Assembly: GCA_027451225.1 (NCBI GenBank)
Contig: DAIDJU010000010.1
Coordinates: 1 to 40,688, forward strand
Reading direction: 5' to 3'
DNA length: 40,688 nucleotides
Source of the DNA: Acidocella sp.
GTDB taxonomy: Bacteria; Pseudomonadota; Alphaproteobacteria; Acetobacterales; Acetobacteraceae
Part shown: piece by piece, positions 12,375 through 40,675 of the stretch
Layout: each line of letters begins with the position of its first letter
Position numbering within the stretch: position 1 is the stretch's first letter
Program-made: the position numbers and the translations under genes
Notes under the pieces: generated by a model
Databases searched by the model: none
Told to the model about the DNA's origin: nothing
What the model saw: the letters and a program-made list of their open reading frames with translations, nothing else

Positions 12375-13751
12375 TTATTCTTCGGCCAGAATATCGGACA
12401 CCCGCTTGCCGTAGCCAGACGGGCGGAAGAACAGGATGCCGATGACCAGCCCGCCAATGCCCACGACCTTGACCGTGAGGTTGAAGGTGGTCAGCGCATA
12501 GAGCCCCAGCCCGAACAGAGCGAAGGCGCTGGCCGCCGGGAACAGCACGTAATGCACGAAATCCCACAGCGAGGTCTTGAGGCTGTCCTTGTACACCCAG
12601 GCGCAGACCAGCCCGGCGAGGCCGTAATAATAGCAGACCTGCACGGCGATGGCGCTGACCGAGTCCGCCAGAATGGTGGAGACGGAGGACTGGAAGCTGG
12701 AGATGAAGATCACCACCAGGCCGACGGCCAGCAGCAGGTACATGGTGCGCACCGGGGTGATGGTCTTCTCATGCACCTGGCCGAAATAGGGCGGCAGGGC
12801 ATGGTCGCGGCCCATGGCGAACAGGGTGCGCGAGAATTGCAGCATGGTGGTTTCCAGCGTCGCCACCGAGGACAGGATCAGCACCAGCGAGGCCGCGTAA
12901 CCGCCGGTCTTGCCCAGGCCCGATTCCACGGCGACGTGGTAGATCAGGTTGTCGGAGAAGCCCGACGCATCCTGGAGCGTGAAGATCAGCAGCGCCGCCA
13001 CGGTGAAGGCGACAAACGAGGCGATGGTGGCGAAGATGGAGAGGAACCCGCCCTGCCCGGCCGCGTTCTTCTCCTGGCCCCTGGTCTCCTCGGCGAGGTT
13101 GGCGGTCACGTCCCAGCCCCAGTACAGAAACACCGTGGCCAGCGCCGCCGGGGCGAAGCTGCCGGCGGGGTAGTTGAAGCCGAACCAGGACCAGGAGAAC
13201 GGGTTCACCACGTGCCCGGCCGAATGCACAAAGGCGGCGATGGAGATGACGAACAGGATGCCAAGCTCGATGGTGCTCATCACCATCTGAATCTTGCTGG
13301 TCAGCTCGATGCCGGTGATCAGCACCACGCCGATGATGATGAACCACACCGCGCCGATGCCGGTGGTGAGCCACACATTGCTGGCGAGGCTGGGGTCGAA
13401 CAGGTCGATGGTGGCGGTGCCGAGCGGCACGGAGCCGGTGACCATGAACACCATGGCGGCAACCAGCAGCGCCCAGCCGGAGAAATAGCCCAGGAACCCG
13501 CCGAACACGGATTTGGTCCATTCATAGGCCGCGCCCGCATTGGCCATCTTGGCCGAGAGCCCCTTATACGCCACGGCCACGCCGAGCATCGGCACGGCGA
13601 AGATCAGCAGCGCGTTGGGAGCCACCATGCCCGCCGTGCTCAGCAGCCCGGCAATGGCCACCGCGATCGAGAATCCAGGCGCGGACCCGGCCACGCCCAT
13701 GATGATCGATTCAAAAAACGATAGAGAATTAGCTTTGAGTTGATTACTCAT
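12375..13751 (-). CDS. APC-superfamily amino acid/polyamine permease
   Basis: MSNQLKANSLSFFESIIMGVAGSAPGFSIAVAIAGLL..., about 12 TMs; YAWTKSVFGG-like AYEWTKSVFGGFLGY. Confidence 0.9.
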   Translation of the reverse strand: MSNQLKANSLSFFESIIMGVAGSAPGFSIAVAIAGLLSTAGMVAPNALLIFAVPMLGVAVAYKGLSAKMANAGAAYEWTKSVFGGFLGYFSGWALLVAAMVFMVTGSVPLGTATIDLFDPSLASNVWLTTGIGAVWFIIIGVVLITGIELTSKIQMVMSTIELGILFVISIAAFVHSAGHVVNPFSWSWFGFNYPAGSFAPAALATVFLYWGWDVTANLAEETRGQEKNAAGQGGFLSIFATIASFVAFTVAALLIFTLQDASGFSDNLIYHVAVESGLGKTGGYAASLVLILSSVATLETTMLQFSRTLFAMGRDHALPPYFGQVHEKTITPVRTMYLLLAVGLVVIFISSFQSSVSTILADSVSAIAVQVCYYYGLAGLVCAWVYKDSLKTSLWDFVHYVLFPAASAFALFGLGLYALTTFNLTVKVVGIGGLVIGILFFRPSGYGKRVSDILAEE

Positions 13752-13768
13752 CCCGTCCCCCTGCTTGC

Positions 13769-14850
13769 TTAGATATTGCTCTTTGGTTGCTGCTGGGTGA
13801 TGCAATGGATATTGCCGCCCCCCAGCAGAATTTCGCGCGCCGGAACCATGACGATCTCCCGCTCCGGGAAGACCCGGGCCAGAATTTCACGCGCCGGCGC
13901 GTCTGTTTCCACACCAAAACTTGGCGCGATGATCGCGCCGTTGGCGATGTAGAAATTCACGTAAGAGGCCGCCATGCGCTCGCCCTCGCGGCGGTTCATG
14001 CCGCTGGCCGTGGCGTCGACGCCCTCGGCCTCCTCCTTGGTAAAAAACATCGGCGTGGGCATGGGTATCCGCTCCACGGTGAGTTGCCGCCCTTGCGCGT
14101 CGTGCGCGGCGAGCAGCCTTGCCTCGGCATCACGGCTCACCGCGTAATGCGGGTCGGCCGGATCATCGCACCAGGTGAGCAGCACCACGCCGGGGCGGAT
14201 GAAGCAGGCGAGATTATCGACATGCCCGTCCGTCTCGTCATGCGGCACGCCCTCGCGCAGCCAGATGACCTGCTTCGCGCCGAGATACTCCTTCAGCATC
14301 CGCTCCATGTCCTGGCGGGTGATGGCCTCGTTGCGGTTCTCGTTGAGCACGCATTGCTCGACGACCAGCACCGTGCCCTCGCCATCCACATGGATCGCCC
14401 CGCCCTCGATGACGAAAGGGGCGCGGAAACGCGCGGCGCGCTCCAGCCCGAGGATCTTGCCCGCCACCTGATCGTCGAGATCCCAGGGGAAGTACAAACC
14501 ACCCTTGAGCCCACCCCAGGCGTTGAAGGGCCAGTCCACCCCCGCGACCTCGCCGCCCGGCCCGAGCAGAAAGCTCGGCCCGACATCGCGGCACCAGGAA
14601 TCGTTGGTGCTGACCTCCACCACCCGCACACCCTCGGGCAGCATGGCCCGGGCATTCTCGTATTGCCGGGCGCTGACCAGCATGGTCACCGGCTCGAACC
14701 GCGAAATCGCCGTGGCGACCTCGGTAAAGGCGCGCTGGGCGGGTTTGCCCCCCAGCCGCCAGTTATCCGGCCGCTCGGGCCAGATCATCCAGCACCCCGC
14801 ATGGGGCGCCCACTCCGCCGGCATGGCAAAGCCAGCGGCGAGCGGCGTCG

Positions 14851-14854
<4 letters not shown>
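13769..14854 (-). CDS. aguA: Agmatine deiminase
   Basis: [23 protein letters not shown]..., [49 protein letters not shown]. Confidence 0.95.
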
Positions 14855-15740
<886 letters not shown>

Positions 15741-15744
<4 letters not shown>

Positions 15745-17111
15745 GCGTTCTTCAGATAGGCGTCGTATTCGACGTCCGAAATACGCTTGCGCATCTCGCT
15801 GATCTCCTGGCGTTTGCAGGCGGTGAACAGGCGCTGGAAGTCCGCCCCGAAGATATCGGCAATGGCCGCGGAGTTGGAGAACCGCTCCACCGCGCCGGAC
15901 CACGCGATGGGCAGCGGCGGCGCATGCGGGCTGCGCGTGGTGCCGACGCTCTCCGGTCCGGGATCGGCCTTGGTCTCCAGCCCCAGCAGGGCCGAGCCGA
16001 GCAGCGAGGCGAAAGCGAGATACGGGTTGCAATCCGCCCCCGCCACGCGATGCTCGACGCGCGAGGCGGCCGGGTCCGAGGTGATGACGCGCACGGCGGC
16101 CATGCGGTTGTCGTGGCCCCAGTCGCCATAGGTGGGCGCGTGCACGCCAGGGGCGAAGCGCCGGTAGGAGTTGGCGTGCGGGGCGAGCGTCAGCATCGTA
16201 TCCGGCATCGTGTTAATGATGCCGCCGACAGCGTGGTACAGCCGGTCCGTGCCGCGCTCCGGCGTGGACTGGAAGATGTTCTTGCCAGCCGTGTCCAGCA
16301 CCGACATGTGCACATGCATGCCCGAACCCGCGCAATGGCCGTAGGGCTTGGCCATGAAGGTGGCGGTGAGACCGTGCTTGCGCGCGATCTCCTTGATGCT
16401 GCGCTTAAACATGGTGGCATTATCCGCCACGCGCAGGGCGTCGGTGTTATACTTCAGCGTCACCTCGAACTGGCCGGGGCCGTTCTCGGAAATCAGCGTC
16501 TCGATCTCGATGCCCTGGATGCGGGCGGTCGCCATCATCTCGCGCAGGATCGGCTCGTATTCGCGAATCTCGCTGAGGCCCACGGCATCCACCTGCCAAC
16601 CGCGCCAGCCGGATTCATCGGCCCCGCGCGGGGCGATCTTCAGGCCGCCATGATGACCTGAATTATCGACGAGGTAGAACTCCAGCTCCACGCCCAACGC
16701 CGGGGTGAGGCCCGCCGCCTTGTAGCGGTCCAGCACACGCGAGAGCACGCCGCGCGGGTCGAGGTAGAAATAGCTGCCATCGGCCTCGCGCATCGTCAGC
16801 AGCGCCTGGGCGGTGTTGCCCTCGGCCCAGGGCATGCGGGTGATGGTGTGCGGCACGGCGGTGCAAAGCCCATCCGGGTCGCCCGTATCCTGGGCGATGC
16901 CGTCCTCCATCACGTCATTGCCCCAGATGTCCAGCAGGAACACCGAGCGGGGAATGGCCAGGCCCGGCCCGAACAGCGACTTGGACTTGCCCGGCTGGAG
17001 CCACTTGCCGCGCAACACGCCGTTCACGTCCACAACAAACGCCTCGACGAAATCGCTCTGGGCCATCAACGCGGCCTTCGCCGCGTTGTCGGTATCGATA
17101 ACCGCGTTCAA
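15741..17111 (-). CDS. Glutamine synthetase-like gamma-glutamyl-polyamine synthetase (PuuA/SpuI type)
   Basis: GS catalytic motifs (LGVELEFYLVD, NGPGQFEVTLKYNTDAL, GSGMHVHMSVLD, RVEHRVAGADCNPYL) in a polyamine operon. Confidence 0.88.
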
Positions 17112-18487
17112 GATGCAACCTCCGACTTCACGATCTCATAGGTCTGGTCGATAGACTTCTTCGCCAGGGCGACCATGGTGTCGATCTCGCTTTCGGTGAT
17201 GGTGAGCGGCGGCGCGAACACCATGGTGTCGCCCACGGCGCGCATGATCAGCCCGCTCTCAATAAACAGATCACGGCAGATGGTGCCCGTGCGGCCCTTC
17301 TTGGCGAAGCCCTTGCGGGTGCGCTTATCCGCGGTCAGCTCGATCGCGCCGATCAGCCCCACGCCGCGGATTTCGCCCACCAGCGGGGAGTCGCCCACCG
17401 CCTCGGCCAGCTTGGCGCGCAGGATATGGCCCTTGGCCTCGGCCGCGGCGACCAGCCCCTCGTTCTCGATGAGTTCGATATTCTTCAGCGCCACAGCGCA
17501 GGAAACCGGATGACCGGAATAGGTGAAGCCGTGATAATATTCACCGGCGTCGTTGATCATCACCTCGGCCACGCGGTCATGCAGCATCACGGCGGAAAGC
17601 GGCACATAGCCGGAGGTGATGCCCTTGGCCATCGTCATCATGTCCGGCTTGATGCCGAAGTAATCGGAACCGAACATCTTGCCGGTGCGGCCGAAACCGC
17701 AGATCACCTCGTCCGCGATCAGCAGGATGTCGTTTTCCTTGCAGATGCGGTTGATCTCGGGCCAGTAGGTCTCGGGCGGAATGAGCACGCCGCCAGCGCC
17801 CTGGATCGGCTCACCAATAAAGGCGGCGACATTCTCGGCGCCCAGTTCGTGGATCTTCTTCTCCACCTCGCGCGCGGCGTAGATGCCGAATTCCTCCGGG
17901 CTCATCTGCCCGCCCTTGCCATACCAATAGGGCGGCAGAACATGCACGAAGTTCGGCATGTCGCCGGCTTGGCGGTGCATGTCCGCCATACCGCCGGCGG
18001 ACGCGCCAAGCGTGGTGGAGCCGTGATAACCATATTCACGGCCGATGACGATCTTCTTGTTCGGCTGGCCCTTGGTCTGCCAGTACACGCGGGCGGTGCG
18101 CAGCGCGCTGTCCACGGCCTCGGAGCCCGAACAGGCGAAGAAGGCGTGGTTCAGCCCTTCCGGCGTGATCTGCGCGAGGCGCTGGGCCAGGCGCACGGCG
18201 GGCTCGGTCGTGGTTTTGAAGAAGGTGTTGTAGTACGGCAGCTTGGTCATCTGCGCGGTGGCGGCCTCGACCAGCTCCTTGCGGCCATAACCGGCGGCAA
18301 CGCACCAGAGACCGGCCATGCCGTCCAGGATCTTGTTGCCCTTGTCGTCGTACAGAAACACGCCTTCGGCCGAGGTAATCACCTTCACGCCACGGGCATG
18401 CAGATCCTTATGGTCGGTGAACGGGTGGAAATGATGCGCAGCATCGAGAGCCTGCAGCGTTGCAGCGGCGTTGATATCGTCCAACAT
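17108..18487 (-). CDS. Class III aminotransferase, putrescine/polyamine:pyruvate type (SpuC-like)
   Basis: MLDDINAAATLQALDAAHHFHPFTDHKDLHARG..., GREYGYHGSTTLGASAGG, LLIADEVICGFGRTG, MTMAKGITSGYVPLSAV (PLP Lys). Confidence 0.9.
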   Translation of the reverse strand: MLDDINAAATLQALDAAHHFHPFTDHKDLHARGVKVITSAEGVFLYDDKGNKILDGMAGLWCVAAGYGRKELVEAATAQMTKLPYYNTFFKTTTEPAVRLAQRLAQITPEGLNHAFFACSGSEAVDSALRTARVYWQTKGQPNKKIVIGREYGYHGSTTLGASAGGMADMHRQAGDMPNFVHVLPPYWYGKGGQMSPEEFGIYAAREVEKKIHELGAENVAAFIGEPIQGAGGVLIPPETYWPEINRICKENDILLIADEVICGFGRTGKMFGSDYFGIKPDMMTMAKGITSGYVPLSAVMLHDRVAEVMINDAGEYYHGFTYSGHPVSCAVALKNIELIENEGLVAAAEAKGHILRAKLAEAVGDSPLVGEIRGVGLIGAIELTADKRTRKGFAKKGRTGTICRDLFIESGLIMRAVGDTMVFAPPLTITESEIDTMVALAKKSIDQTYEIVKSEVAS

Positions 18488-18728
18488 TTTTATATGTATC
18501 CCCAAAAATTTAATCTGAATCGCGCGCGCCAGGGCACCGCAGTGCTGCGGCGCACAAAACACAAGCACAAATATTCAGTCGCGGGGGGGGCTGAAACCGA
18601 TGCGTGCGCAGAGAAGCAGCATCTCTGCCTTACGCTTGGGCTCGGGAAGTGCGGCTGCAAAAACCATGCGCAAAGCTTGGCATGGCCGCAAAAGCGTTTC
18701 AAGAATTTTTTATTAAGGGCAATTTTTT

Positions 18729-18756
18729 GGTTGCCGGGGGGGATCCCCCGGCAACC
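18729..18756. other. Perfect 12-bp stem hairpin downstream of the cytochrome-porin gene
   Basis: GGTTGCCGGGGG-GGAT-CCCCCGGCAACC; no T tract on the minus side, so not a canonical terminator. Confidence 0.6.
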
Positions 18757-18771
18757 CGCGGCACAACCGGC

Positions 18772-20127
18772 CTAGAACACAAACCAGATGCCGGTGAAGA
18801 ACACGTTATTATCCCCGGCATTGCGGCCATTGCCGTCGTAATTATGGGCGAGGCCGTTAAACTGGGTATAGGTCGTGTACTCGGCGAAGAATTTGGCATT
18901 GGCCCAGGGGAAGAACTTCGGCCCACCCCGGTTGAACGGATAATAATCCAGCTCGGTCGTGAAGCTATCGGTATTGGGCTTGCCGTTGGCGTTGCTGGAG
19001 GACGTGTTGTAGAGCCCGGTATCGCCGCTGCCGGTAATGCTGTTGAAGGATTCCGTGATCCCGAACATCTGCCGCCAGAGATAGGAGGCCGTGATCGCCT
19101 CGACATTCAGCGCGTCGTTCAGGTTTGCGGTATCGCCCTGCCGGTAGCTTGCTCCCCAATGCTGGTACTCGTGGAACCAGGAGGCCTGGACCGAGAAGGA
19201 CTGATTCGCCTCGATATGCTGGAACTGGAGGTCGAGGCCGACATCGGTCAGATTGTCGGTCGGGCCGTGCTTCAGCCCGGATGGGTACGGATGGTCTGTC
19301 AGGCCGGAGGCACCGACCTCAATGGAGTTCTCGCCCATGCTGTGCTGGTAAGCCACGCGCCAATACGGCGTGACCCCGGCAATGCCGTTGGACGGCCCCG
19401 CCCCAAGCGCGAAAGCCGTATGGTCGGGCAGAGATTTATACAAATCCACCTCGCCATAGAGCATGTCCTCCGGCGTGATGTTGATGGCTGAATACCCGCC
19501 AAAACCCGCCACGGTCTGCGCCAAATTATTGATTTGCAGGCTGGCGGTCGGCCCCATACCCAGGCTGTCCGAAATGAACGGATAACCCCAGGCAGGCAGC
19601 GTGTTCCACAAATCCGTCATCGTGGGGTTGTTGTTGAAGGTGACGCCATAGACCACCGGCATACCGAACAGATTCAGCCCCCGGGCGAGGCGGATGTCTG
19701 TATTGTCCCAGGTGAACTGATGGGAGATACCATCGAACGTGCCTTGCACGAAGGCGCCGAGACCAAGCTGCTTGTCCAGCACGCCGCCGTAGAACAGACT
19801 GGTCTGCTGGATCGACCACGCATTGTTGCTCGGATAATCCGGGGACAAACCACCGGCCACCTTGTTGTTCAGGTGGGTGTAGCCGCCTTCCACCATCGCC
19901 GAGAAATTTTTGGCGTCGGGGAAGTCCTGGTTACCCAGCACATAGGCTTTCATCTTGAAGAGGCGGCCAAACGGCGTGAGCTGCGGAAAGCCGATATGAC
20001 AGGCGGCGCAAGGCAGGCCCGTTTGCGCCGCGAAGGAAGGAATCGCCTCGGCCGGGCGGGACGCCGCCAGCAGCGCGGCTGAAGCGGCAACGCCGCCAAC
20101 CATAACTTGTACAATACGCTTAACCAT
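18772..20127 (-). CDS. Predicted outer-membrane monohaem cytochrome-porin fusion (Cyc2-like)
   Basis: Signal peptide (..LLAASRPAEA), immediately IPSFAAQTGLPCAACHIGFPQLTPFGRLFKMKAYVLG with one CxxCH, then about 400 aa of amphipathic aromatic-rich sequence ending in ..FFTGIWFVF (terminal Phe of an OM barrel). Confidence 0.7.
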   Translation of the reverse strand: MVKRIVQVMVGGVAASAALLAASRPAEAIPSFAAQTGLPCAACHIGFPQLTPFGRLFKMKAYVLGNQDFPDAKNFSAMVEGGYTHLNNKVAGGLSPDYPSNNAWSIQQTSLFYGGVLDKQLGLGAFVQGTFDGISHQFTWDNTDIRLARGLNLFGMPVVYGVTFNNNPTMTDLWNTLPAWGYPFISDSLGMGPTASLQINNLAQTVAGFGGYSAINITPEDMLYGEVDLYKSLPDHTAFALGAGPSNGIAGVTPYWRVAYQHSMGENSIEVGASGLTDHPYPSGLKHGPTDNLTDVGLDLQFQHIEANQSFSVQASWFHEYQHWGASYRQGDTANLNDALNVEAITASYLWRQMFGITESFNSITGSGDTGLYNTSSSNANGKPNTDSFTTELDYYPFNRGGPKFFPWANAKFFAEYTTYTQFNGLAHNYDGNGRNAGDNNVFFTGIWFVF

Positions 20128-20136
20128 TCGAATCTC

Positions 20137-20180
20137 CCAGATCGTCTTCTCGCAATAACCAGATCATCTTCTCGCAATAA
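20137..20180 (-). repeat. 22-bp direct tandem repeat (2 copies, 1 mismatch) in the leader of the cytochrome-porin gene
   Basis: CCAGATCGTCTTCTCGCAATAA (20137-20158) followed directly by CCAGATCATCTTCTCGCAATAA (20159-20180). Confidence 0.9.
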
Positions 20181-29681: not shown

Positions 29682-30251
29682 ATGCGGGCCGAGCCAGCCG
29701 CCCGCCCGCCTGCTCTGGGGCTTATGGCGCTTATCGCCGTCCCGGTCCTGTTCCATCTCATCATCGTCTACACCGCCCACACCCCTCTGGCCTTGCGCTT
29801 CAGCGCCGGGGGGCTGGCCAAGCTGGGCTTCGTCTCGGTGGCGGCGCTGATGCATTGGGGGCTGTATACCAGCCTGCTCGCCACCTTTGGGCTGACTTTG
29901 CGCCCCGGCCATGAGCCGCTCATCACCGGCATGGCGCGGCGCCTGCATGGCGATATCGCGGATGAGCTGGTCCGCTACACCCGCAACGTCACCATCGCCT
30001 GGACGATCTTCTTTGCGATGCAGCTCACCCTGTCCATCACGCTGTTCTGCTTCGCCCCGCTGGTGGTGTGGTCCTTCTTCGTCAATATTCTGGATATCCC
30101 GCTGGTGGTGACGATGTTCGCGGCGGAATACGCCATCCGGCTGCGCTGCCTGAAGAATCCGCCTCGCCATTCCCTGTCCATGATCTTCAATATGGTCGCC
30201 GGTTCCGTGCGCGAGGCGAGGGAGCGTCCGGCCAGGCAGGAAAACTTATGA
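29682..30251 (+). CDS. COG4648-type integral membrane protein of aryl-polyene-type clusters
   Basis: Multiple TMs (LMALIAVPVLFHLIIVYT, TIAWTIFFAMQLTLSITLFCFAPLVVWSFFVNILDIPLVVTMFAAEYAIRLR); located between the ACP and the AMP-ligase. Confidence 0.7.
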   Translation: MRAEPAARPPALGLMALIAVPVLFHLIIVYTAHTPLALRFSAGGLAKLGFVSVAALMHWGLYTSLLATFGLTLRPGHEPLITGMARRLHGDIADELVRYTRNVTIAWTIFFAMQLTLSITLFCFAPLVVWSFFVNILDIPLVVTMFAAEYAIRLRCLKNPPRHSLSMIFNMVAGSVREARERPARQENL

Positions 30252-31573
30252 ATACCCCAACGGCGCATGTTTATTCCGTAACCTCCCACGCGGCGGAGGA
30301 TATCGTCGCCCGGCGCGGCGGCGAAACGCTGAGCGCCGCGCAATTCCAGCGCGACGCGGCCGCCCTGGCGGCGCGGCTCCCCGCACGGCGGCACATCATC
30401 AATCTGTGCACCGACCGTTACCGCTTCATGGTCGGGCTGGCGGCGGCGCTGCTGCGCGGGCAGGTCAGCCTGATGCCCACCGCCAACGTCCCCGAGGCCC
30501 TGCGCGCCTTGGCCGAGGATTACCCGGACCTCTACGCCCTGACCGACACAGGCGAGGCGGTGGTGCCAAGCTTCGCCTATCCGGCGGACCTCTCCGGCGC
30601 GGCGGCGGACATGCCCCTTATCCCCGGCCAACAGCGCGCCGCCGTGCAGTTCACCTCGGGTTCCACTGGCAAGCCCAAGCCGGTGCCCAAATCCTGGTCC
30701 ACGCTGGTGCATAGCGCCCGCACCGCCGGGGCGCGGCTCAATGCCCCGGCCCTGAAGGGGGCCACCATCGTCGGCACCGTGCCGCACCAGCATAGCTACG
30801 GGCTGGAATCCATCGTCATGCTCGCCCTCCAGCATGGGTTCGCGGTGGAAGCCTCCAGCCCGCTCTACCCGGCGGATGTGCGCGCGGCCCTCGAGAGCGC
30901 CCCGCGCCCGCGCATTCTGGTGACCACGCCGGTGCATCTGCGCGCTTTGGTGGCGGAGCCCGAGGGCATGCCGGTGGTGGACCTCATCCTCTCCGCCACC
31001 GCACCGCTGCCCGAGGCGCTGGCCCAGGCCGCCGAGACCTGTCTCGGCGCACCGCTGGTCGAGATCTATGGCTGCACCGAGGCCGGGCAGGCGGCCTCCC
31101 GCCGTTCCACGCAAGAGACGGACTGGCATCTTTTCGACGATATCGACCTGCGCCAGGACGAAACCGGCAACTGGGCCAGCGGCAAGGCGGTGGAAGGCAT
31201 CGCGCCGTTGCAGGATGTGATCGAGCTGACCGGGCCGCGCCATTTCCGCCTGGGGGCGCGGGCTTCGGAGCTGGTGAACATCGCGGGCAAGCGCAGTTCG
31301 CTGCCCTATCTCAACAACCAGCTCCTCTCCATCCCCGGCGTGCAGGACGGCGCCTTTCTGCTCGACGACGACGCCACCGGGCCCGTGCAACGGCTGATGG
31401 CCATGGCCGTGGCGCCCGCCCTCACGCGGGAGGACATCCTGCGCGCCTTGCGCGAGCGCATCGACCCCGCCTTCCTCCCCCGTCCGCTGGTGGTGGTGCA
31501 GTCCCTGCCCCGCAACGCCGTGGGCAAGCTGCCGCGCACCGATTTGCTGCGCCTGCTCGGCCGCACCTCATGA
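30248..31573 (+). CDS. AMP-dependent acyl/aryl-CoA (ACP) ligase
   Basis: ANL A3 motif [48 protein letters not shown]. Confidence 0.88.
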   Translation: MNTPTAHVYSVTSHAAEDIVARRGGETLSAAQFQRDAAALAARLPARRHIINLCTDRYRFMVGLAAALLRGQVSLMPTANVPEALRALAEDYPDLYALTDTGEAVVPSFAYPADLSGAAADMPLIPGQQRAAVQFTSGSTGKPKPVPKSWSTLVHSARTAGARLNAPALKGATIVGTVPHQHSYGLESIVMLALQHGFAVEASSPLYPADVRAALESAPRPRILVTTPVHLRALVAEPEGMPVVDLILSATAPLPEALAQAAETCLGAPLVEIYGCTEAGQAASRRSTQETDWHLFDDIDLRQDETGNWASGKAVEGIAPLQDVIELTGPRHFRLGARASELVNIAGKRSSLPYLNNQLLSIPGVQDGAFLLDDDATGPVQRLMAMAVAPALTREDILRALRERIDPAFLPRPLVVVQSLPRNAVGKLPRTDLLRLLGRTS

Positions 31574-31857
31574 CCGGCTGGCGGACACAGGCCCTGACCA
31601 TCCCCGCCGAGCACCCCAGCGCCGACGGGCATTTCCCAGGCAACCCGATCATCCCAGGCGCGCTGCTGCTGGATGTGGCGCTCGAGGCGATGGGTGTCGC
31701 GGGCGGCGCGGTGATCCGGAGCGCGAAATTCCTCCGCCCCGTGCGCCCCGGCACAGCGCTGGAGCTGCGTTGGCAGCCCGCCGGCGAGCAGGCCTGGCGC
31801 TGCGAGTGCCTGGCCGCCGGGGATCTGGCGGCCAGCTTCACGGTGGCGCTGGCATGA
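31570..31857 (+). CDS. FabZ/FabA-like 3-hydroxyacyl-ACP dehydratase (short)
   Basis: IPAEHPSADGHFPGNPIIPGALLLDVALEAMG, the hot-dog HFPGxPxxPG motif. Confidence 0.85.
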   Translation: MTGWRTQALTIPAEHPSADGHFPGNPIIPGALLLDVALEAMGVAGGAVIRSAKFLRPVRPGTALELRWQPAGEQAWRCECLAAGDLAASFTVALA

Positions 31858-32756
31858 AGAGCGAAGCGCAAACCCAGGAATGGACCACACAGCGCGAGCG
31901 CGGGGCGCTGCCGGTCATCAAGGCCTGCGTCTGGGTCGCGCTGCGCCTCGGCCGCCGCACGGCGCGGCTGTTTCTCTACCCGGTGTGCCTGTACTTCCTG
32001 CTCTCCTCCCCCGCGGCGAGCGCGGCCTCGCGCGGCTATCTCGCCCGCGTGCTGGGCCGCCCGGCCGGGCAGCGGGATGTGTTCCGCCACTTCCTCACCT
32101 TTGCCTCCTGCGTGCTGGACCGCGTCTTCCTCCTCAACGAGCAGCGGGGCTGGTTCGACATCACCGTGCATAACGAGGCGCTGGTGCAGGAGATCGAGGC
32201 GCAGGGCCGGGGCTGCATGCTGTTCGGCGCGCATTTCGGCAGTTTCGAGGTCGCCCGCGCCGTGGGCCGCCAGCGCGAGCATCTGCCGATCAGCCTGCTG
32301 ATGTACGAGGAAAACGCCCAGAAAATCCGCGCCGCCCTCGCCGCCATCAACCCCAATCTGGCGACGGAGGTGATCGGCCTCGGGCGGCTGGACTCGCTGA
32401 TCGCCGTGGCGGAGCGGTTGCAGCGCGGGCATTTCATCGGCGTACTGGCGGATCGCAATGTCGATGGCCGGGACCTCGTCCGCTACCCGTTCCTGGGCGG
32501 CGAGGCCAGCTTCCCCAAGGGCCCGTTCCGCGTGGCCATGCTGCTCCAGCGCCCGGTGGTGATGATGGCCGGGCTCTATCGCGGCGGGCGGACATACGAT
32601 GTGCGATTCGAGCTGTTGGCCGAGGCCCCCGCCGCGCGCCCGGCGGACCCGGAAGCCTGGATCGACGATGTGATGCGCCGCTATGTCACCCGGCTGGAGG
32701 CGTATTGCCGCGAGGCCCCGTTCAACTGGTTCAACTTCTATGATTTCTGGGCCTAA
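31854..32756 (+). CDS. Lysophospholipid/lipid A-type acyltransferase (LPLAT)
   Basis: FLLYF..RGCMLFGAHFGSFEVARAVG, GHFIGVLADRNVDGRDLVRYPFLGGEASFPKGPFRVAMLLQRPVV. Confidence 0.85.
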   Translation: MKSEAQTQEWTTQRERGALPVIKACVWVALRLGRRTARLFLYPVCLYFLLSSPAASAASRGYLARVLGRPAGQRDVFRHFLTFASCVLDRVFLLNEQRGWFDITVHNEALVQEIEAQGRGCMLFGAHFGSFEVARAVGRQREHLPISLLMYEENAQKIRAALAAINPNLATEVIGLGRLDSLIAVAERLQRGHFIGVLADRNVDGRDLVRYPFLGGEASFPKGPFRVAMLLQRPVVMMAGLYRGGRTYDVRFELLAEAPAARPADPEAWIDDVMRRYVTRLEAYCREAPFNWFNFYDFWA

Positions 32757-32757
32757 C

Positions 32758-33339
32758 ATGCGCAGGGCGCTGCTCGCCGCCCTGCTGCTCCTGGCCCCCG
32801 CCACCCAGGCGCAGACCATGTGGAGCCTGGATGTGCTGATGATCCAGATGGCCCAGGTGCGCGCCGCCTCGGCCAGCTTCACCGAGCAGAGAACCTCGCC
32901 GCTGCTCAACGCCCCGCTGACCACCCAGGGCACGCTGCGCTACACCGCGCCCGCCTATATGCGCAAAACCACGCAGGGCCCGGCGCCGCAGGACTTCATC
33001 CTCGACCACGACCGCATCACCATGAGCGGCGGGCCGGACGGCAAGACGCATGTGTTCCACGCCTCGGACGCGCCGCAGATCGGCGGGCTGGTCGAGGGCA
33101 TCCGCGCCGTGCTGGCGGGGGACGAGGCCACGCTCACCCGGCTCTACACCGTGCAGCTCGGCGGGGACGCCGCCAACTGGCAACTGCAACTCACCCCGCT
33201 TGACCCCAAGGTGGCGAAGCTGGTGCGCGCCATCACCATCGCGGGCAGCGGGGCGCGCATCACCGGCATCGACACCGCCAGCCCCGATGGCAGCGACTCC
33301 CACATGCGCATCGCCGAGACCGTGAGCGATGCGCCCTGA
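32758..33339 (+). CDS. LolA-like outer-membrane lipoprotein carrier-type protein
   Basis: Signal peptide, then MAQVRAASASFTEQRTSPLLNAPLTTQGTLRYTAPAYMRKTTQGP. Confidence 0.8.
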   Translation: MRRALLAALLLLAPATQAQTMWSLDVLMIQMAQVRAASASFTEQRTSPLLNAPLTTQGTLRYTAPAYMRKTTQGPAPQDFILDHDRITMSGGPDGKTHVFHASDAPQIGGLVEGIRAVLAGDEATLTRLYTVQLGGDAANWQLQLTPLDPKVAKLVRAITIAGSGARITGIDTASPDGSDSHMRIAETVSDAP

Positions 33340-35647
33340 ACGTCTCGCCCTCGGGCTCTGGCTGGCGCTGCTGGTGCTGTGCGGCGTCATCGCCGCGCGC
33401 GCCAGCTACCGTACCCAGATGGGCGATTTCCTGCCGCACTCCGCCTCGCTGGAGCAGCAGGTGCTGGCGCAGCAGGTGAATGGCGGGGCGGCCTCGCATA
33501 TCCTGCTCGTCGCGCTGGAGGGCGCGCCCACCGCGACGCTGGCGGCGCTGAGCGAGGATCTCGCCGGAAAGCTGCGGGACAACGCCGCCTTCATCGACGT
33601 GATGAACGGCGACGACCACTCCCTGGCCCAAATCCAGGATTTCATCTGGCGCAACCGCTATCTGCTGAGCGATTCCGTCACCCCCCAGCGCTTCACCGCC
33701 GAGGGGCTGCATACCGCGCTGACCAGCGATATCGGGTTGCTCGGCACCGACCTCGCCCCCGTGCTGAGCCAGAGCCTGCCCCAAGACCCAACCGGCGAGG
33801 CGCTGAACCTGATGTCCACCCTCGCCCCCGCCAGCGCGGGACCGGCGGTGAATGACGGCGTCTGGACCTCGCCCCAAGGCGACGACGCGCTGCTCCTGCT
33901 GCACACCGCCGCCCCCGGCTTCGACCTCGACGCGCAGCAGCGCGACCTGGGGCTGGTGGATGCCGCCTTCGCCGCCGCGCGGGCCGAAACGCCCGGCGCG
34001 CAGGCTGCCAGGCTGGAGATAAGCGGGCCGGGCGTTTTCGGGGTGCGCACCCGGGATGTGACGAAGCACGACGTCACCCGGCTCTCGATCCTCGCCACCA
34101 TCGGGGCGGTCTCGCTGCTGGCCTTCGCCTATCGCTCGCCGCGCGTGCTGCTGCTGGGGCTGCTGCCCATCGCCAGCGGGGCGCTGGCGGCCATCGCCGC
34201 CGTGTCGGTGGGGTTCGGCTTCGTGCATGGCATCACGTTGGGGTTCGGCGTCACCCTCATCGGCGAGGCGATGGATTACGCCATCTATCTCTTCACCCAG
34301 ACCGCCCAGGGCGACACGGCGCGCGACACGCTCTCGCGCATCTGGCCCACGCTGCGGCTGGGGGCGCTCACTTCAGTGGCCGGGTTCGCGGCCATGCTGT
34401 TCTCCAGCTTCACCGGCTTCGCGCAGCTGGGGCTGTTCTCCATCATGGGGCTGATTACCGCCGCCGCCGTTACGCGCTTCGTGCTGCCGCCTCTGATGCC
34501 CAAACAGTTCTTCGCCGTGGGGGCCGGGGGCATGGCCAAGCCGCTGGGCTGGCTCATCCGCCACCAACGCCCGGCGCGCCTCATGGCGCTGGCGGCGCTG
34601 CTGGCGGCGGGGGCGGCGCTGCTCACCCACAGAGGCGGCATGTGGGATGAGAATTTGCTCGACCTCAGCCCCATCCCCACCGCCGCCCAGGCACTGGACG
34701 CGAAACTGCGCCACGAACTCGGCGTGCCAGACCAGCGCTATTTCGCGGTGTTCCAGGCCGGGAGCGCGCAGCAGGCGCTGGCCCGGAGCGAGGCGCTGGC
34801 CCCCGTGCTGGCCGGGCTGAAGGCGGACGGCGCGCTGGCGGGCTACGACCTGCCCAGCAACATTCTGCCCAGCGACGCCACGCAGCGCGCCCGCCAAGCC
34901 GCCCTGCCCGACGCCGCCACGCTCAGCGCCAGGCTGGCCCAGGCGCAAACCGGGCTGCCCTTCCGCGCCGATGCCTTCGCGCCCTTCCTGAAAGACGTGG
35001 CGGCGGCGAAAACCGCTCCGTTGCTCAACGCGGCCAGCCTGCCCCCAGCGCTGGCGCTGCGCTTTGGCTCCATGCTGGTGCAAAACGGGGCCGACTGGGT
35101 CGTCACCGCCCCGCTCACCGACATCGCCGATCCCACGGCGGCGTCCCAGCGCCTCGCCGCCGCCGGCGCGAACTTCGTCGATCTCGACCATGAATCCGCC
35201 ACGCTGATGTCCACCTTCCAGCGCGAGGCGGTGACTCTGGCCGTAGTCGGCAGCCTCGCCATTCTGTCGCTGCTCGTCGTGGGGCTGCGGTCACCGCGCC
35301 GCGCGGCACGGGTGGCGGCGCCGCTCGCCATGGCTGTCGCCATCACGGCGGCGCTGCTCACGCTGGGGGGCGGCAAGCTCTCCATCTTCATGGTCACGGG
35401 GTTTCTGCTCATCGTCGCCATCGGCTCCAATTACTGCCTGTTCTTCGAACGCGCCGTGGCGGGCAGCGTGGCCTGGGAACGGGCCATCGCCTCGATCCTG
35501 CTGGCCAATCTCTGCACCGTGGCGGCTTATGGGCTGATGGCGCTCTCGCATATCCCGGTGCTGCACGATATCGGCGTGACCGTCGCCACCGGCACCTTCC
35601 TCAGCCTGCTCTGCGGCGCGGTGTTCAGCCGTGGGGGCGCGCCATGA
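33329..35647 (+). CDS. MMPL/RND-family exporter
   Basis: 772 aa, two 5-6 TM blocks separated by periplasmic domains; GFGVTLIGEAMDYAIYLFTQTAQG and VTGFLLIVAIGSNYCLFFERA. Confidence 0.88.
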   Translation: MRPERLALGLWLALLVLCGVIAARASYRTQMGDFLPHSASLEQQVLAQQVNGGAASHILLVALEGAPTATLAALSEDLAGKLRDNAAFIDVMNGDDHSLAQIQDFIWRNRYLLSDSVTPQRFTAEGLHTALTSDIGLLGTDLAPVLSQSLPQDPTGEALNLMSTLAPASAGPAVNDGVWTSPQGDDALLLLHTAAPGFDLDAQQRDLGLVDAAFAAARAETPGAQAARLEISGPGVFGVRTRDVTKHDVTRLSILATIGAVSLLAFAYRSPRVLLLGLLPIASGALAAIAAVSVGFGFVHGITLGFGVTLIGEAMDYAIYLFTQTAQGDTARDTLSRIWPTLRLGALTSVAGFAAMLFSSFTGFAQLGLFSIMGLITAAAVTRFVLPPLMPKQFFAVGAGGMAKPLGWLIRHQRPARLMALAALLAAGAALLTHRGGMWDENLLDLSPIPTAAQALDAKLRHELGVPDQRYFAVFQAGSAQQALARSEALAPVLAGLKADGALAGYDLPSNILPSDATQRARQAALPDAATLSARLAQAQTGLPFRADAFAPFLKDVAAAKTAPLLNAASLPPALALRFGSMLVQNGADWVVTAPLTDIADPTAASQRLAAAGANFVDLDHESATLMSTFQREAVTLAVVGSLAILSLLVVGLRSPRRAARVAAPLAMAVAITAALLTLGGGKLSIFMVTGFLLIVAIGSNYCLFFERAVAGSVAWERAIASILLANLCTVAAYGLMALSHIPVLHDIGVTVATGTFLSLLCGAVFSRGGAP

Positions 35648-36342
35648 ACATCGTCACGCGGCTGGACTACGCCTCCCCCCTGCCCGGCGATGACCGCCTG
35701 CTGCTGGTGATGCTGCCGGGGGCGGGCATCCGCGCCCGGGACTTTGCCGCCCAGGGCATGGTGGCAGCTGCTCACGCACAAAACCTGCCCGTGGATGTGA
35801 GCGTGGTGGAGCCGGATCTCACCCTCTATCTGGAGGACGAGGTAACGGCGGCGCTGCATCGCGAGGTCATCATGCCCGCGCGGGCACGGGGCTATACGCG
35901 CATCTGGCTGCTTGGCATCTCGCTCGGCGGCATGGGGGCGTTGCTCTATGCCAGCGCACATCCCAACGAGGTGGAGGGGCTGGTGCTGCTGGCCCCGTTC
36001 CTCGGCACGCGCGGCACCATGGCCGCGCTGGCCAAGGCGGGCGGGCTGGGGCCCGAGACCCAGGCGCTGGCCACCACCGCGCCGGAGCAGCGCCTGCTCG
36101 GCTGGCTCACCGCGCATCTGGCGCAAGGGGCGGCGGCTCCGGCCCTGTATCTGGGCTATGCGCGGCAGGACCGTTTTGCTCCTGGCCACAGGCTGCTGGC
36201 CGAGCACCTGCCACCTTCGCGCACGGCCATTCAGGATGGCGGGCATGACTGGCCCGCCTGGACGGCGCTATGGCGGGAGCTGCTCGCCCACGCCCCCTTC
36301 CGCCCCAGGCCAAGCGGTGATAGAGATTGTTACAAAATCTGA
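35644..36342 (+). CDS. Alpha/beta hydrolase
   Basis: Nucleophile elbow GISLGGMG; acid YARQDRFAPG; GGHDWPAW His. Confidence 0.85.
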   Translation: MNIVTRLDYASPLPGDDRLLLVMLPGAGIRARDFAAQGMVAAAHAQNLPVDVSVVEPDLTLYLEDEVTAALHREVIMPARARGYTRIWLLGISLGGMGALLYASAHPNEVEGLVLLAPFLGTRGTMAALAKAGGLGPETQALATTAPEQRLLGWLTAHLAQGAAAPALYLGYARQDRFAPGHRLLAEHLPPSRTAIQDGGHDWPAWTALWRELLAHAPFRPRPSGDRDCYKI

Positions 36343-37538
36343 TGGGTTTAAGCACGGGGATCATGGGCAAAGCCGACATCGCACTTGCCGGTCCCGGCAC
36401 CTCCTACCAGACGCTCTTCCCCTATCACGCCGAGTTCTGCGCGCTCTCGGAATTCCGCAAGAAGCCCGGCTTCGGCGCTGAGCTGCGCAGCGGCATGGGC
36501 GGGCATGCGGTGCTCTACCTCAACGGCGTGCGGCTGGACCGCGCCGCCCGCTACCCCGTGCTGCGCCTCTGCGCGCCCGATGAAGCGCCGGAGCAGCACG
36601 GCGTCGGCATCAGCGTGAACGAACATTACCGCAACGCCAACTGGATCGCCGTGGAGGGCCGGGACTTTCTGCTGCGCGGCGCGCTGGAGGAGGGCGAGCC
36701 CTTAACCCGCGCCAGCTACGCCCGCACCCAGGCCCGCGCCCAGGCGATGGGCATTTTCGAGGGCGTGGAGTTCCACCCGCATCTGTTCCGCGACAAGCCG
36801 CACGGCATGTCCGACCGTGAATATATGTACGAGATCTCGGTGGCCTCGGATTACGGCGTGCGCTTCGGGCGCGATGCCTATTGCGCCCGCGTGCCGCTGG
36901 ACCATGCCCGCATGGGCGCGATCGTCGATTACCTGAACGCGCTCAACCGCCCCTACCAGGAGGGCAGGCGGATTTATACCTGGAAGATCTTCACCGATAA
37001 CTGCGTGCATGTGGGGCATAACGCCCTGGCGGCGGCGGGGGTATGGGCCCCCTGGCCCACCGGGCAATCCCCGATGCTCGCCGCCTTCAAATTCCCCGTC
37101 CCCAAGAATACATTCGTGGACCTGATGCTGCGCACCAACGATTTGCCGCTTGAAGCCCCCGACGCCCTGTACGCGGACCACGCCGCGCTTCAGGCGTTGC
37201 TGCGCTGGGGCAGCCTGCCCGTGGGGCCGGGGGCGCTGGCCGTGGCCGAACCGGCGGTGGCGCGCAACGAGATCTACGACGTCTCCCGCCGGCTGAAGCT
37301 GATTTTCTACGACAACCCGTTCTGGGGCCCGTACCGCCCCCGCTTCAACCGCATCTTCGCCGACCCGCGCTATACCGATCTGCGCGCCAATCTGCGCCAT
37401 TTCGCCGCGCGTTACGTGGCGGCCAAGCGGCAGGGCAAGGGGCCGCACCCGGCCTTCACCGCGCGGTATGAGGCGCATATCGCCCATGCCGCCGCCCAGG
37501 CCTCGGCCATGCTGGCTGCGCTGGGGGAGGCGGCATGA
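36342..37538 (+). CDS. Uncharacterised protein, candidate permuted papain-like (NlpC/P60/LRAT-type) enzyme
   Basis: 399 aa; His-first GMGGHAVLYLNGVRLD, Cys-later TWKIFTDNCVHVGHNALAAAGV. Start could instead be 36363. Confidence 0.5.
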   Translation: MGLSTGIMGKADIALAGPGTSYQTLFPYHAEFCALSEFRKKPGFGAELRSGMGGHAVLYLNGVRLDRAARYPVLRLCAPDEAPEQHGVGISVNEHYRNANWIAVEGRDFLLRGALEEGEPLTRASYARTQARAQAMGIFEGVEFHPHLFRDKPHGMSDREYMYEISVASDYGVRFGRDAYCARVPLDHARMGAIVDYLNALNRPYQEGRRIYTWKIFTDNCVHVGHNALAAAGVWAPWPTGQSPMLAAFKFPVPKNTFVDLMLRTNDLPLEAPDALYADHAALQALLRWGSLPVGPGALAVAEPAVARNEIYDVSRRLKLIFYDNPFWGPYRPRFNRIFADPRYTDLRANLRHFAARYVAAKRQGKGPHPAFTARYEAHIAHAAAQASAMLAALGEAA

Positions 37539-38725
37539 CGCAGCTTGCCCTCACCGCCTTTTCCATCGTCACCGCGCTGGGCGCCGGGCAGGACGCCAAT
37601 CTCGCCGCCCTGCGCGCGGGGCGCAGCGCCCTCGTCCCCTGCCGGTTCGATACGCTGCCCATCGACGCCTATGCCGGCGAGGTGGAGGGGCTAGACCAGC
37701 CCCTCACCGGCCCCTGGGCGGGGTTTGACTGCCGCAACAACCGCCTCGCCGCCCTGGCGTTGCGGCAGGATGGCTTCCTCGACGCCGTGGAAGCCGCCAA
37801 GGCGCGGCATAGCCCGGCGCGCATCGGGCTGTTCCTGGGCACCAGCACATCCGGCATCTGGGAGACAGAGACCGCCTACCGCCACCGCGCCCCGCAAACC
37901 GGCGCGCTGCCGCAAGGGTTCGACTACGCCCGCACCCACAACACCTACGCACTGGGGCGGTTCCTGCGCGAGTATCTGGGCCTGGGCGGACCGGCCTTCG
38001 TGATCTCCACCGCCTGCGCGGCCACCTCCAAGGTGTTTGCCGACGCAGCCCGGATGATCCGGGCCGGGATCTGCGATGCCGCCATCGTCGGCGGGGCGGA
38101 TACCCTGTGCGGCACCACCTTGTTCGGCTTCCACGCGCTGGGCGTGATGGCGGAGGGGCCGTGCCGGCCTTTTGATGCCGCGCGCAATGGCATCTCCATT
38201 GGCGAGGGGGCGGGCTTCGTGTTGTTGGAACGCCCCAGCCCGGCGCACGGGGCCGAGACCGTGATGCTGCTCGGCACGGGTGAAAGCTCGGACGCGTATC
38301 ACATGTCCTCCCCCCACCCTGAAGGCGAGGGCGCGCGCGCCGCAATGCTCCAGGCCCTGGCGGCGGCGGGGTTGCTGCCGGAGGAGATCGACTACATCAA
38401 CCTGCACGGCACCGCGACGCTGGTGGGCGACGCGGCGGAAGACAAGGCCATCTCCGGTTTGTTTGGCGATAAAGTGCCTTGCAATTCCAGCAAGGGCTTC
38501 ACTGGCCATACGCTCGGGGCCTCGGGCGTGGTGGGGGCGGCGTTCGCGGCGCTGGCCATCCGGCACGGTTTCATCCCGGGCAGCCCACATACGCGCGAGG
38601 TCGATCCCGGCTTTGCCAGCAATTATTTGCGCGAGGGGCGGGAAGCGCGGGTGAACCATGTGCTGTGCAACGCCTTCGGCTTCGGCGGGGTGAATTGCAG
38701 CATGGTGCTGGGGCGAGCGGCATGA
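37535..38725 (+). CDS. Beta-ketoacyl-ACP synthase (FabF/KAS II-like)
   Basis: FVISTACAATSK (Cys), INLHGTAT (His), KGFTGHTLGASG (His), NAFGFGGVNCSMVL. Confidence 0.94.
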   Translation: MTQLALTAFSIVTALGAGQDANLAALRAGRSALVPCRFDTLPIDAYAGEVEGLDQPLTGPWAGFDCRNNRLAALALRQDGFLDAVEAAKARHSPARIGLFLGTSTSGIWETETAYRHRAPQTGALPQGFDYARTHNTYALGRFLREYLGLGGPAFVISTACAATSKVFADAARMIRAGICDAAIVGGADTLCGTTLFGFHALGVMAEGPCRPFDAARNGISIGEGAGFVLLERPSPAHGAETVMLLGTGESSDAYHMSSPHPEGEGARAAMLQALAAAGLLPEEIDYINLHGTATLVGDAAEDKAISGLFGDKVPCNSSKGFTGHTLGASGVVGAAFAALAIRHGFIPGSPHTREVDPGFASNYLREGREARVNHVLCNAFGFGGVNCSMVLGRAA

Positions 38726-39525
38726 TGCACGTGTATCTGGAAGGCATCGGCCTGTTCGGACCGGGGCTGGCGGGGTGGGAAGCCGGCCGCGCCGCTCTGG
38801 CCGGAGCCGTACCCTACACCCCAACCGAAACGCCTCTGCCCGCCGCCGCGCTGCTGCCCGCCAATGAGCGCCGCCGCGCCCCGAAGATCGTGCGGATCGC
38901 CCTGGCCACCGGGGCCGAGGCCCTGGCTGCCGCCGGGCGAGACCCGGCGCGGGTTGCGGCAGTGTTCACCTCCTCGGGCGGCGATGGCGATACGATCCAC
39001 GAGATCATGTCCACCCTGGCCTCGCCTGTCCGCGAACTTTCTCCCACGCGGTTCCACAACTCGGTGCATAACGCGGCGGCGGGGTATTGGAGCATCGCCA
39101 CGGCCTCGCGCGCGGCCTCGACCAGCCTGTGCTGCCATGACGGCAGCTTCGCCGCGGGGCTGCTGGAAGCGGCGGTGCAGGCAACGGTGGACAACAAAGC
39201 CGTGGCGCTGATCGCCTATGATGTCCCCTACCCCTCGCCGCTGGCCGAGGCACGGCCCATCGGCCCCGCTTTTGGTGTGGCGCTGGCGCTCTCACCCGCG
39301 CCCTCCCCCGCCAGCTTCGCCCGGCTGGAGATGGCGCTGACCACGGACCAACCGCTCAGCCATAACGCCGAGCCCACGCTGGAGGCGCTGCGCCGCGCCA
39401 CCCCGGCGGCGCGCGCCTTGCCGTTGCTGGCGGCACTGGCGACGAACGGCACGGCGGCGGTGACGTTGGAGTATCTGCCGGATCTGGCGTTGAACGTGAG
39501 CATCACACCGGAGAAAAGCTCATGA
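38722..39525 (+). CDS. Truncated KS-like protein / chain-length-factor-type partner
   Basis: KS N-terminal-type fold cues (ATGAEALAAAGRDPARVAAVFTSSGGDGDTIHEI..RFHNSVHNAAAGYWSIAT) but no HGT or GHxxG active-site His motifs. Confidence 0.8.
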   Translation: MMHVYLEGIGLFGPGLAGWEAGRAALAGAVPYTPTETPLPAAALLPANERRRAPKIVRIALATGAEALAAAGRDPARVAAVFTSSGGDGDTIHEIMSTLASPVRELSPTRFHNSVHNAAAGYWSIATASRAASTSLCCHDGSFAAGLLEAAVQATVDNKAVALIAYDVPYPSPLAEARPIGPAFGVALALSPAPSPASFARLEMALTTDQPLSHNAEPTLEALRRATPAARALPLLAALATNGTAAVTLEYLPDLALNVSITPEKSS

Positions 39526-39959
39526 GCATCGGGCATGAGCAGATCCAGGGCATGATCCCCCATTCCGGCGCCATGTGCCTGCTGGACGAAGTGCTGGACT
39601 GGGACGCCGCCGCCGTGCGCTGCGTTTCCCGCCGCTACCGCCTGCCCGGCAACCCGCTGCGCCGCGCCGATGGTACGCTGGGCACCGCCTGCGGCGTCGA
39701 GATCGCGGCGCAGGCGATGGCTGTGCATGGGCGGCTCACCGCGCCCGAGGGAGGTGAGCCTGTGCCGGGTTATCTGGTGGCTCTGCGGGATGTACGGCTC
39801 GCCGCGCCGCTGCTGGACGAGGCGGGGGAAGAGTTGCTCGTGGAGGTCAGGTTGCTGATGGGCGACGGCAAGGGCGCGACCTATGAATTCGCCCTCTCGG
39901 CGGAAGGCGCGCCATGGCTCGCCGGGCGGGCCACCGTGCTGTTCGGAGCGGGGCAATGA
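39522..39959 (+). CDS. 3-hydroxyacyl-ACP dehydratase-like hot-dog protein
   Basis: IQGMIPHSGAMCLLDEVLDWD...CGVEIAAQAMAVHG..; dehydratase family of aryl-polyene-type clusters. Confidence 0.85.
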   Translation: MSIGHEQIQGMIPHSGAMCLLDEVLDWDAAAVRCVSRRYRLPGNPLRRADGTLGTACGVEIAAQAMAVHGRLTAPEGGEPVPGYLVALRDVRLAAPLLDEAGEELLVEVRLLMGDGKGATYEFALSAEGAPWLAGRATVLFGAGQ

Positions 39960-40675
39960 GCCGCGCGCTGGTGACTGGCGGCAGCGGGGCCATCGGCGGG
40001 GCCATCGCCCGCGCGCTGGCGGCGGCGGGGCATCATGTCTATGTCCATGCGCATGGGCGGATTGAGCGCGCGCAAGAGGTGGCGGCGGAGATCATCGCCC
40101 AGGGCGGGGCGGCGGAGGCCGTGCAATTCGACCTCACCGACGCGCAAGCCACGCAAGCCGCCCTGGCCGCGATACTGGACGCCGGCGCGGTGCAGATTTT
40201 GGTTAATAATGCGGGCATCCATGACGACGCGCCGATGCCGGGGATGCGCCATGAGCAATGGGCGCGGGTGATCGATGTTTCGCTCAACGGTTTCTTCAAC
40301 GTCACCCAGCCGCTGCTGCTGCCGATGATCCGCACGCGCTGGGGGCGGGTGATCAACATCTCCTCGGTAGCCGGGGTGATGGGCAATCGGGGCCAGGCCA
40401 ATTACGCGGCGGCCAAGGCCGGGCTGCACGGGGCGGCGCGCTCGCTGGCGCTGGAGGTGGCGAGCCGGGGGATCACCGTGAATACGGTGGCGCCGGGGAT
40501 CATCGCCTCGCCCGCCACGGCGGAGCTGTTCCCCAAGGAGGCGCTGGAGCGCATGGTGCCGGTGAAACGCGCCGGAACGCCGGAGGAGGTGGCCGATCTC
40601 GTCGGCTTCCTGGCCTCGGAGCGGGCGGGCTATATCACGGGGCAGCTCATCAACATCAATGGCGGCATGGCCTGA
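39956..40675 (+). CDS. 3-oxoacyl-ACP reductase (FabG-like SDR)
   Basis: ALVTGGSGAIGGAIARAL, NNAGIHDD, YAAAKAGLHG, TVAPGIIASPAT. Confidence 0.94.
   Translation: MSRALVTGGSGAIGGAIARALAAAGHHVYVHAHGRIERAQEVAAEIIAQGGAAEAVQFDLTDAQATQAALAAILDAGAVQILVNNAGIHDDAPMPGMRHEQWARVIDVSLNGFFNVTQPLLLPMIRTRWGRVINISSVAGVMGNRGQANYAAAKAGLHGAARSLALEVASRGITVNTVAPGIIASPATAELFPKEALERMVPVKRAGTPEEVADLVGFLASERAGYITGQLININGGMA

Follow-up and report, generated by a model that had tools for sequence, protein, structure and literature searches.

A Cyc2-like cytochrome-porin fusion as a probable iron-linked electron port in an Acidocella-type bacterium

We identified a Cyc2-like cytochrome-porin fusion in an Acidocella-type MAG of the Acetobacteraceae, and this protein is probably an iron-linked electron port between dissolved iron and the periplasm, working in one direction or the other. 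The host assembly comprises 2.6 Mb in 200 contigs and is 97.4 % complete; the gene (18772..20127, minus strand) lies in what we call the window, the whole stretch of 40,688 nucleotides that was analysed. The architecture of the protein and its homology to Cyc2 are firm, while its haem loading, iron as its substrate, the direction of transfer and the electron acceptor are what we infer. Acidophilic heterotrophs that cycle iron need a step at the outer membrane, for which the gene is a direct candidate; most genomes of the genus carry it.

The open reading frame encodes 451 aa, and a Shine-Dalgarno-like GGGAG (20134..20138, minus strand) can be read from the sequence ahead of its ATG start. Residues 1-28 form a Sec-type signal peptide (20044..20127, minus strand) with a cleavage site, placed by eye, between ...RPAEA and IPSF; the AlphaFold model has a helix in this region at residues 2-21. 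The only CxxCH in the frame is the haem c attachment motif CAACH at residues 40-44 (19996..20010, minus strand), assigned from the sequence and the family alignment. An earlier sequence-only reading had reported a Sec signal and one CAACH near the N-terminus in the context AIPSFAAQTGLPCAACHIGFPQLTPFGRLFK, which we found to match exactly. It had also described an outer-membrane-barrel sequence ending in Phe, and this was borne out by the C-terminus, ...GIWFVF, and by the strands of the model. The reading frame and its cytochrome-porin features are therefore confirmed as a real observation. Around the gene, no intrinsic terminator or promoter rose above chance level. Immediately downstream of it, at 18729-18756, is a G+C-rich inverted repeat with perfect 12-bp arms (GGTTGCCGGGGG and CCCCCGGCAACC), which lacks the T-run needed for an intrinsic terminator on the minus strand.

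AlphaFold modelled the protein from 73 aligned sequences with a pLDDT of 91.8 and a pTM of 0.86. A 16-strand barrel with the haem motif on an N-terminal plug had been predicted, and the model contains just this: exactly 16 strands between residues 75 and 450 (18778..19905, minus strand), behind a helical plug at residues 31-59 (19951..20037, minus strand) that holds the haem motif and the stretch PQLTPFGRLFK. Conservation supports both assignments, and Foldseek supports that of the barrel. Among the PDB matches listed by Foldseek are the general porins OmpT, Omp32, OmpF, PorB, OprP (2o4v) and OprO (4rjw), and also AlgE, with TM-scores of about 0.40-0.46 by query length; such modest values are expected for a diverged barrel that carries a plug. 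No haem-porin structure is among the best 50 PDB matches. Clear placement in a non-redox porin family would have spoken against a cytochrome-porin, and no such family claims the protein. Pfam and NCBIfam gave no family for it at E values up to 10, their porin models had no convincing match in 20 relatives, and a sequence search of the PDB found no family.

Across the family, conservation is highest in the plug, and ten of the residues in and around it (P30, Q35, T36, C40, C43, H44, L50, G54, F57 and K58) are the same in all 103 members. In the strands of the barrel, conservation is higher on the lumen side than on the lipid side (P = 7e-9), with faces assigned by hydrophobicity and the more polar face taken as the lumen. 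The net charge of the lumen is -12 in the window protein and -5.6 on average in the family; the choice of the polar face makes the size of this interior charge partly a matter of construction, but not its sign. An acidic lumen of this kind is suited to cations. Residue 78 is Met in 97 of 103 family members, and Met78 (19894..19896, minus strand), which the alignment and the model place on strand 1, facing the lumen close to the plug, is a candidate for the distal haem ligand. No residue that could be a second axial haem ligand is shared by every Cyc2, and Met78 is kept only on the window's side of the family.

Keffer et al. defined Cyc2 by the signature AxPxFAR[QK][TY], a CxxCH, a PxL and a porin (PMC8406198). 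With 451 aa, the window protein lies above their bound of at least 365 aa, and it has the N-terminal CxxCH, a PxL four residues past it (CAACHIGFPQL) and, judging from the model and the porin fold matches, a 16-strand porin barrel behind the haem domain. Its homology to the Cyc2 of iron oxidisers runs through f176, a family inferred to be zetaproteobacterial, which the profile of the window's family matches with E values of 1e-20 to 1e-26 over the N-terminal 130 aa; past the first strands, the barrel sequence has diverged. The two families have in common the plug signature P-x-F-x-x-Q-T-xxx-CxxCH-...-P-x-L-...-G-x-x-F-K. The same signature occurs in a Cyc2 from another proteobacterial family (G647), with two dihaem cytochromes downstream. 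The published signature, in turn, is missed at a single residue: AIPSFAAQT (residues 28-36; 20020..20046, minus strand) fits every fixed position save one, where Ala34 (nt 20026-20028, minus strand) takes the place of Arg. The Cyc2-like identity proposed from the sequence thus stands in its homology, for which a match to Cyc2 profiles had been anticipated, and in its barrel and plug, but not in this residue.

Ala34 is present in every Acidocella and Acidiphilium sequence examined, and these form one clade (SH-aLRT 99-100). The nearest neighbours of the clade, related Acetobacteraceae, have Gly or Glu at this position; on a second branch of the family, it is occupied by Ala, Ser, Thr, Leu or Gln. 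This variety indicates that the Arg was replaced more than once. The tree of Keffer et al. was built after sequences without PxFAR[QK][TY] had been discarded (PMC8406198), so that sequences lacking the Arg would be absent from it. Screens that demand this motif would lose entire clades of Cyc2-like proteins, and either potential iron oxidisers are undercounted wherever this filter is used or it divides the proteins by function. As a speculative extension, which we hold to be improbable, the Acidocella/Acidiphilium clade could represent a functionally shifted Cyc2, adapted in heterotrophs to the reduction of Fe(III) or to another substrate, in which residue 34 sets the haem potential or the direction of transfer and in which the window's subclade has been rewired to a different periplasmic acceptor.

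The gene is full-length or nearly so in 20 of 25 genomes of the genus, the window's own included, and four of the 25 have no match for it. Acidocella aquatica, which belongs to the genus, has the orthologue. In G012, a remnant (G012:C59:232428-232775) retains only residues 13-102 and 420-451 in one 158-aa frame, with most of the barrel gone. Identity to genus members is 57-77 % in the alignment, and a later search found a nearest relative at 86 %. The gene is under purifying selection, with a dN/dS against relatives of 0.15-0.17; together with the family-wide residue identity and the presence of the gene across the genus, this shows that CAACH did not arise by chance. Beyond the genus, 72 of 250 genomes of the Acetobacteraceae have homologues, as do 35 of its 102 sampled genera, and a scan of named genomes yielded more than 500 related loci, spread over Alpha-, Beta- and Gammaproteobacteria, Acidobacteria, Gemmatimonadota, Verrucomicrobiota, Bacteroidota and others. 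Some genomes hold three or four Cyc2-like copies (four matches in G992, three each in G1124 and G1179).

The gene had been described as standing alone. This is correct for the window, where the gene calls include no second CxxCH reading frame, but not for many relatives. A cytochrome c gene lies directly downstream on the same strand at 23 of the 68 family loci with at least 700 nt of downstream sequence, against a background of about 0.018 cytochrome reading frames per kb in the far flanks of these loci. Within the genus, the partner cytochrome adjoins the gene in 11 of the 18 genomes whose downstream side is visible. The partner is a monohaem cytochrome c in Acidiphilium and many Acidocella, and a dihaem c4-like protein in others. 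In G007, the gene order is trihaem cytochrome, cyc2-like gene, monohaem cytochrome, ccmC and ccmF, and in G003 and G020 ccmF lies within about 2-3 kb of the pair of cyc2-like and cytochrome genes. At the locus of the window's genome and of six relatives (G001, G009, G011, G016, G022 and G024), a partner cytochrome is lacking. Such an absence, like the G012 remnant, might be expected if the system were decaying in the window's subclade, the partner having been lost from the locus and the barrel retained only as a pore. We consider decay very unlikely, since the plug and haem residues are all intact and dN/dS within the subclade is about 0.15.

Another kind of neighbour was found in seven other relatives, mostly Hyphomicrobiales, which encode a small protein beside the gene; three of three that were scanned match HiPIP (PF01355) above the cut-off. 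HiPIP carries electrons and has been implicated in iron pathways, both those of acidithiobacilli and those of phototrophs (PMC10715153). The HiPIP-type gene is upstream and divergent at L050, L056, L057, L059, L064 and L104, and L090 has two upstream copies on the same strand. Members of the family are widespread beyond the known iron oxidisers, for example in Ralstonia, Paraburkholderia, Nitrosospira and Methylocapsa, and Keffer et al. regard other functions as possible and Cluster 3 as uncertain (PMC8406198), which would leave room for a redox sensor, a gated channel or a conduit for a non-iron substrate, e.g., copper or humic substances. However, the plug and the acidic lumen are strongly conserved and cytochromes or HiPIP are paired with the gene, as would suit the transfer of single electrons to or from a cation, and we judge a non-iron role unlikely.

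For the iron port, we propose that the protein would be exported by Sec and then receive a c-type haem at CAACH. The short haem domain would plug the periplasmic mouth of the 16-strand barrel, and dissolved iron would enter the acidic lumen from outside and exchange one electron with the haem. The haem may then swap electrons with a cytochrome c of the periplasm, either soluble or anchored in the membrane, a partner presumably encoded by the adjacent gene in many relatives but not in the window's subclade. Given the lack of an adjacent partner there, another carrier would have to serve, for example a 354-aa dihaem cytochrome on contig C83, which of the proteins in the window's genome is the one most closely related to the partner.

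As to direction, we lean slightly towards Fe(II) oxidation over Fe(III) reduction, because every Cyc2 tested so far, three proteins, oxidises Fe(II) (PMC8406198). The same protein could work in reverse, as an outer-membrane Fe(III) reductase fed by periplasmic cytochromes under low oxygen, and this we regard as possible but doubtful; it is the other direction of the port, and the probability we assign to the port is common to both. Reduction follows closely, since Acidocella and Acidiphilium are heterotrophs known to reduce Fe(III) and not known to oxidise iron (PMC8790237, PMC8305228). The terminal reductase by which Acidocella aromatica and Acidiphilium reduce Fe(III) is described as unsettled, and Cyc2B is present in Acidithiobacillus that reduce iron anaerobically (PMC8790237, PMC10715153). 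The lack of rusticyanin in the window's genome would also agree with a reductase, while the tested Cyc2 proteins and the four genus genomes that do without the gene weigh against it.

Our genome-wide statements come from single-family searches of the host genome, and it was in such a search that rusticyanin had no match. Rusticyanin-like proteins in the genus genomes G001, G003 and G005 (L159-L162) reach 87-102 bits, compared with a curated cut-off of 146.7. The rus-type gene order of Acidithiobacillus, cyc2-cyc1-cup-cox-rus, does not occur here, there being neither a cytochrome beside the gene nor a rusticyanin. A search for named Acidithiobacillus Cyc2 by way of operon context, run over gammaproteobacterial genomes, turned up no recognisable rus operon. 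CcmF, of the c-type haem attachment system, was not found in the window's assembly and is present in 22 of 24 genus genomes. The alignment with the close relative G016 reaches the very start of contig C108 at a point about 2.2 kb short of ccmF, and nothing else in the assembly carries it on. True loss of CcmF would undermine haem attachment; we rejected it, as the alignment stops at the contig end ahead of ccmF, which makes an assembly gap the better reading, although it remains a caveat. In weighing the iron port, we counted for it the model, the porin folds, the Cyc2 profile matches, the partner, ccm and HiPIP neighbours, the conserved acidic lumen, dN/dS and the Fe(II) oxidation by the tested Cyc2 proteins, and against it the Ala in place of Arg, the missing partner at the locus, the lack of rusticyanin, the CcmF missing from the assembly and the heterotroph physiology.

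The protein resembles the Cyc2 of Acidithiobacillus, Mariprofundus and Leptospirillum (Cyt572) in its signal peptide, its single N-terminal CxxCH with PxL after and AxPxFAxQT before, its size class of about 400-480 aa and its 16-strand barrel with a fold related to OprP and OprO, the structures used for modelling Cyc2 (PMC8406198). It differs from them in having Ala for the Arg of FAR and in lacking Cyc1, rusticyanin and a cox operon in its surroundings. MtrAB, MtoAB and PioAB do the same job of moving electrons across the outer membrane through a barrel, but with two proteins, a 26-strand barrel and ten haems, in contrast to the one protein, 16 strands and one haem motif here (PMC8406198). 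Network neighbours of Acidithiobacillus Cyc2 include Acidiphilium, Acidisphaera and Acidocella (PMC10654088), and Acidocella homologues have been reported, the gene often being adjacent to a mono- or dihaem cytochrome (PMC10715153). The homologues of these acid-mine heterotrophs very probably belong to the same orthologous group as the window protein (PMC10654088, PMC10715153), whose subclade, unlike them, has no adjacent cytochrome (PMC10715153). With these 2023 papers, Cyc2-like proteins in the genus were already known, and the window holds a variant; in the accessible passages of the literature, we found mention neither of a fixed loss of the Arg nor of a subclade whose locus lacks the partner.

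The remainder of the window has other content. The divergent gene upstream of the Cyc2-like gene encodes a WD40 protein. Downstream, at 12378-18568 on the minus strand, lies a polyamine/agmatine-type catabolic cluster with genes for a class-III aminotransferase, a glutamine-synthetase-type enzyme, a carbon-nitrogen hydrolase, an agmatine-deiminase-type protein (PAD_porph) and an amino-acid permease. A lipid-type biosynthetic cluster occupies 29682-40672 on the plus strand and encodes a lipid A-type acyltransferase, an MMPL exporter, a beta-ketoacyl synthase and a short-chain reductase, an arrangement that may resemble aryl polyene clusters.
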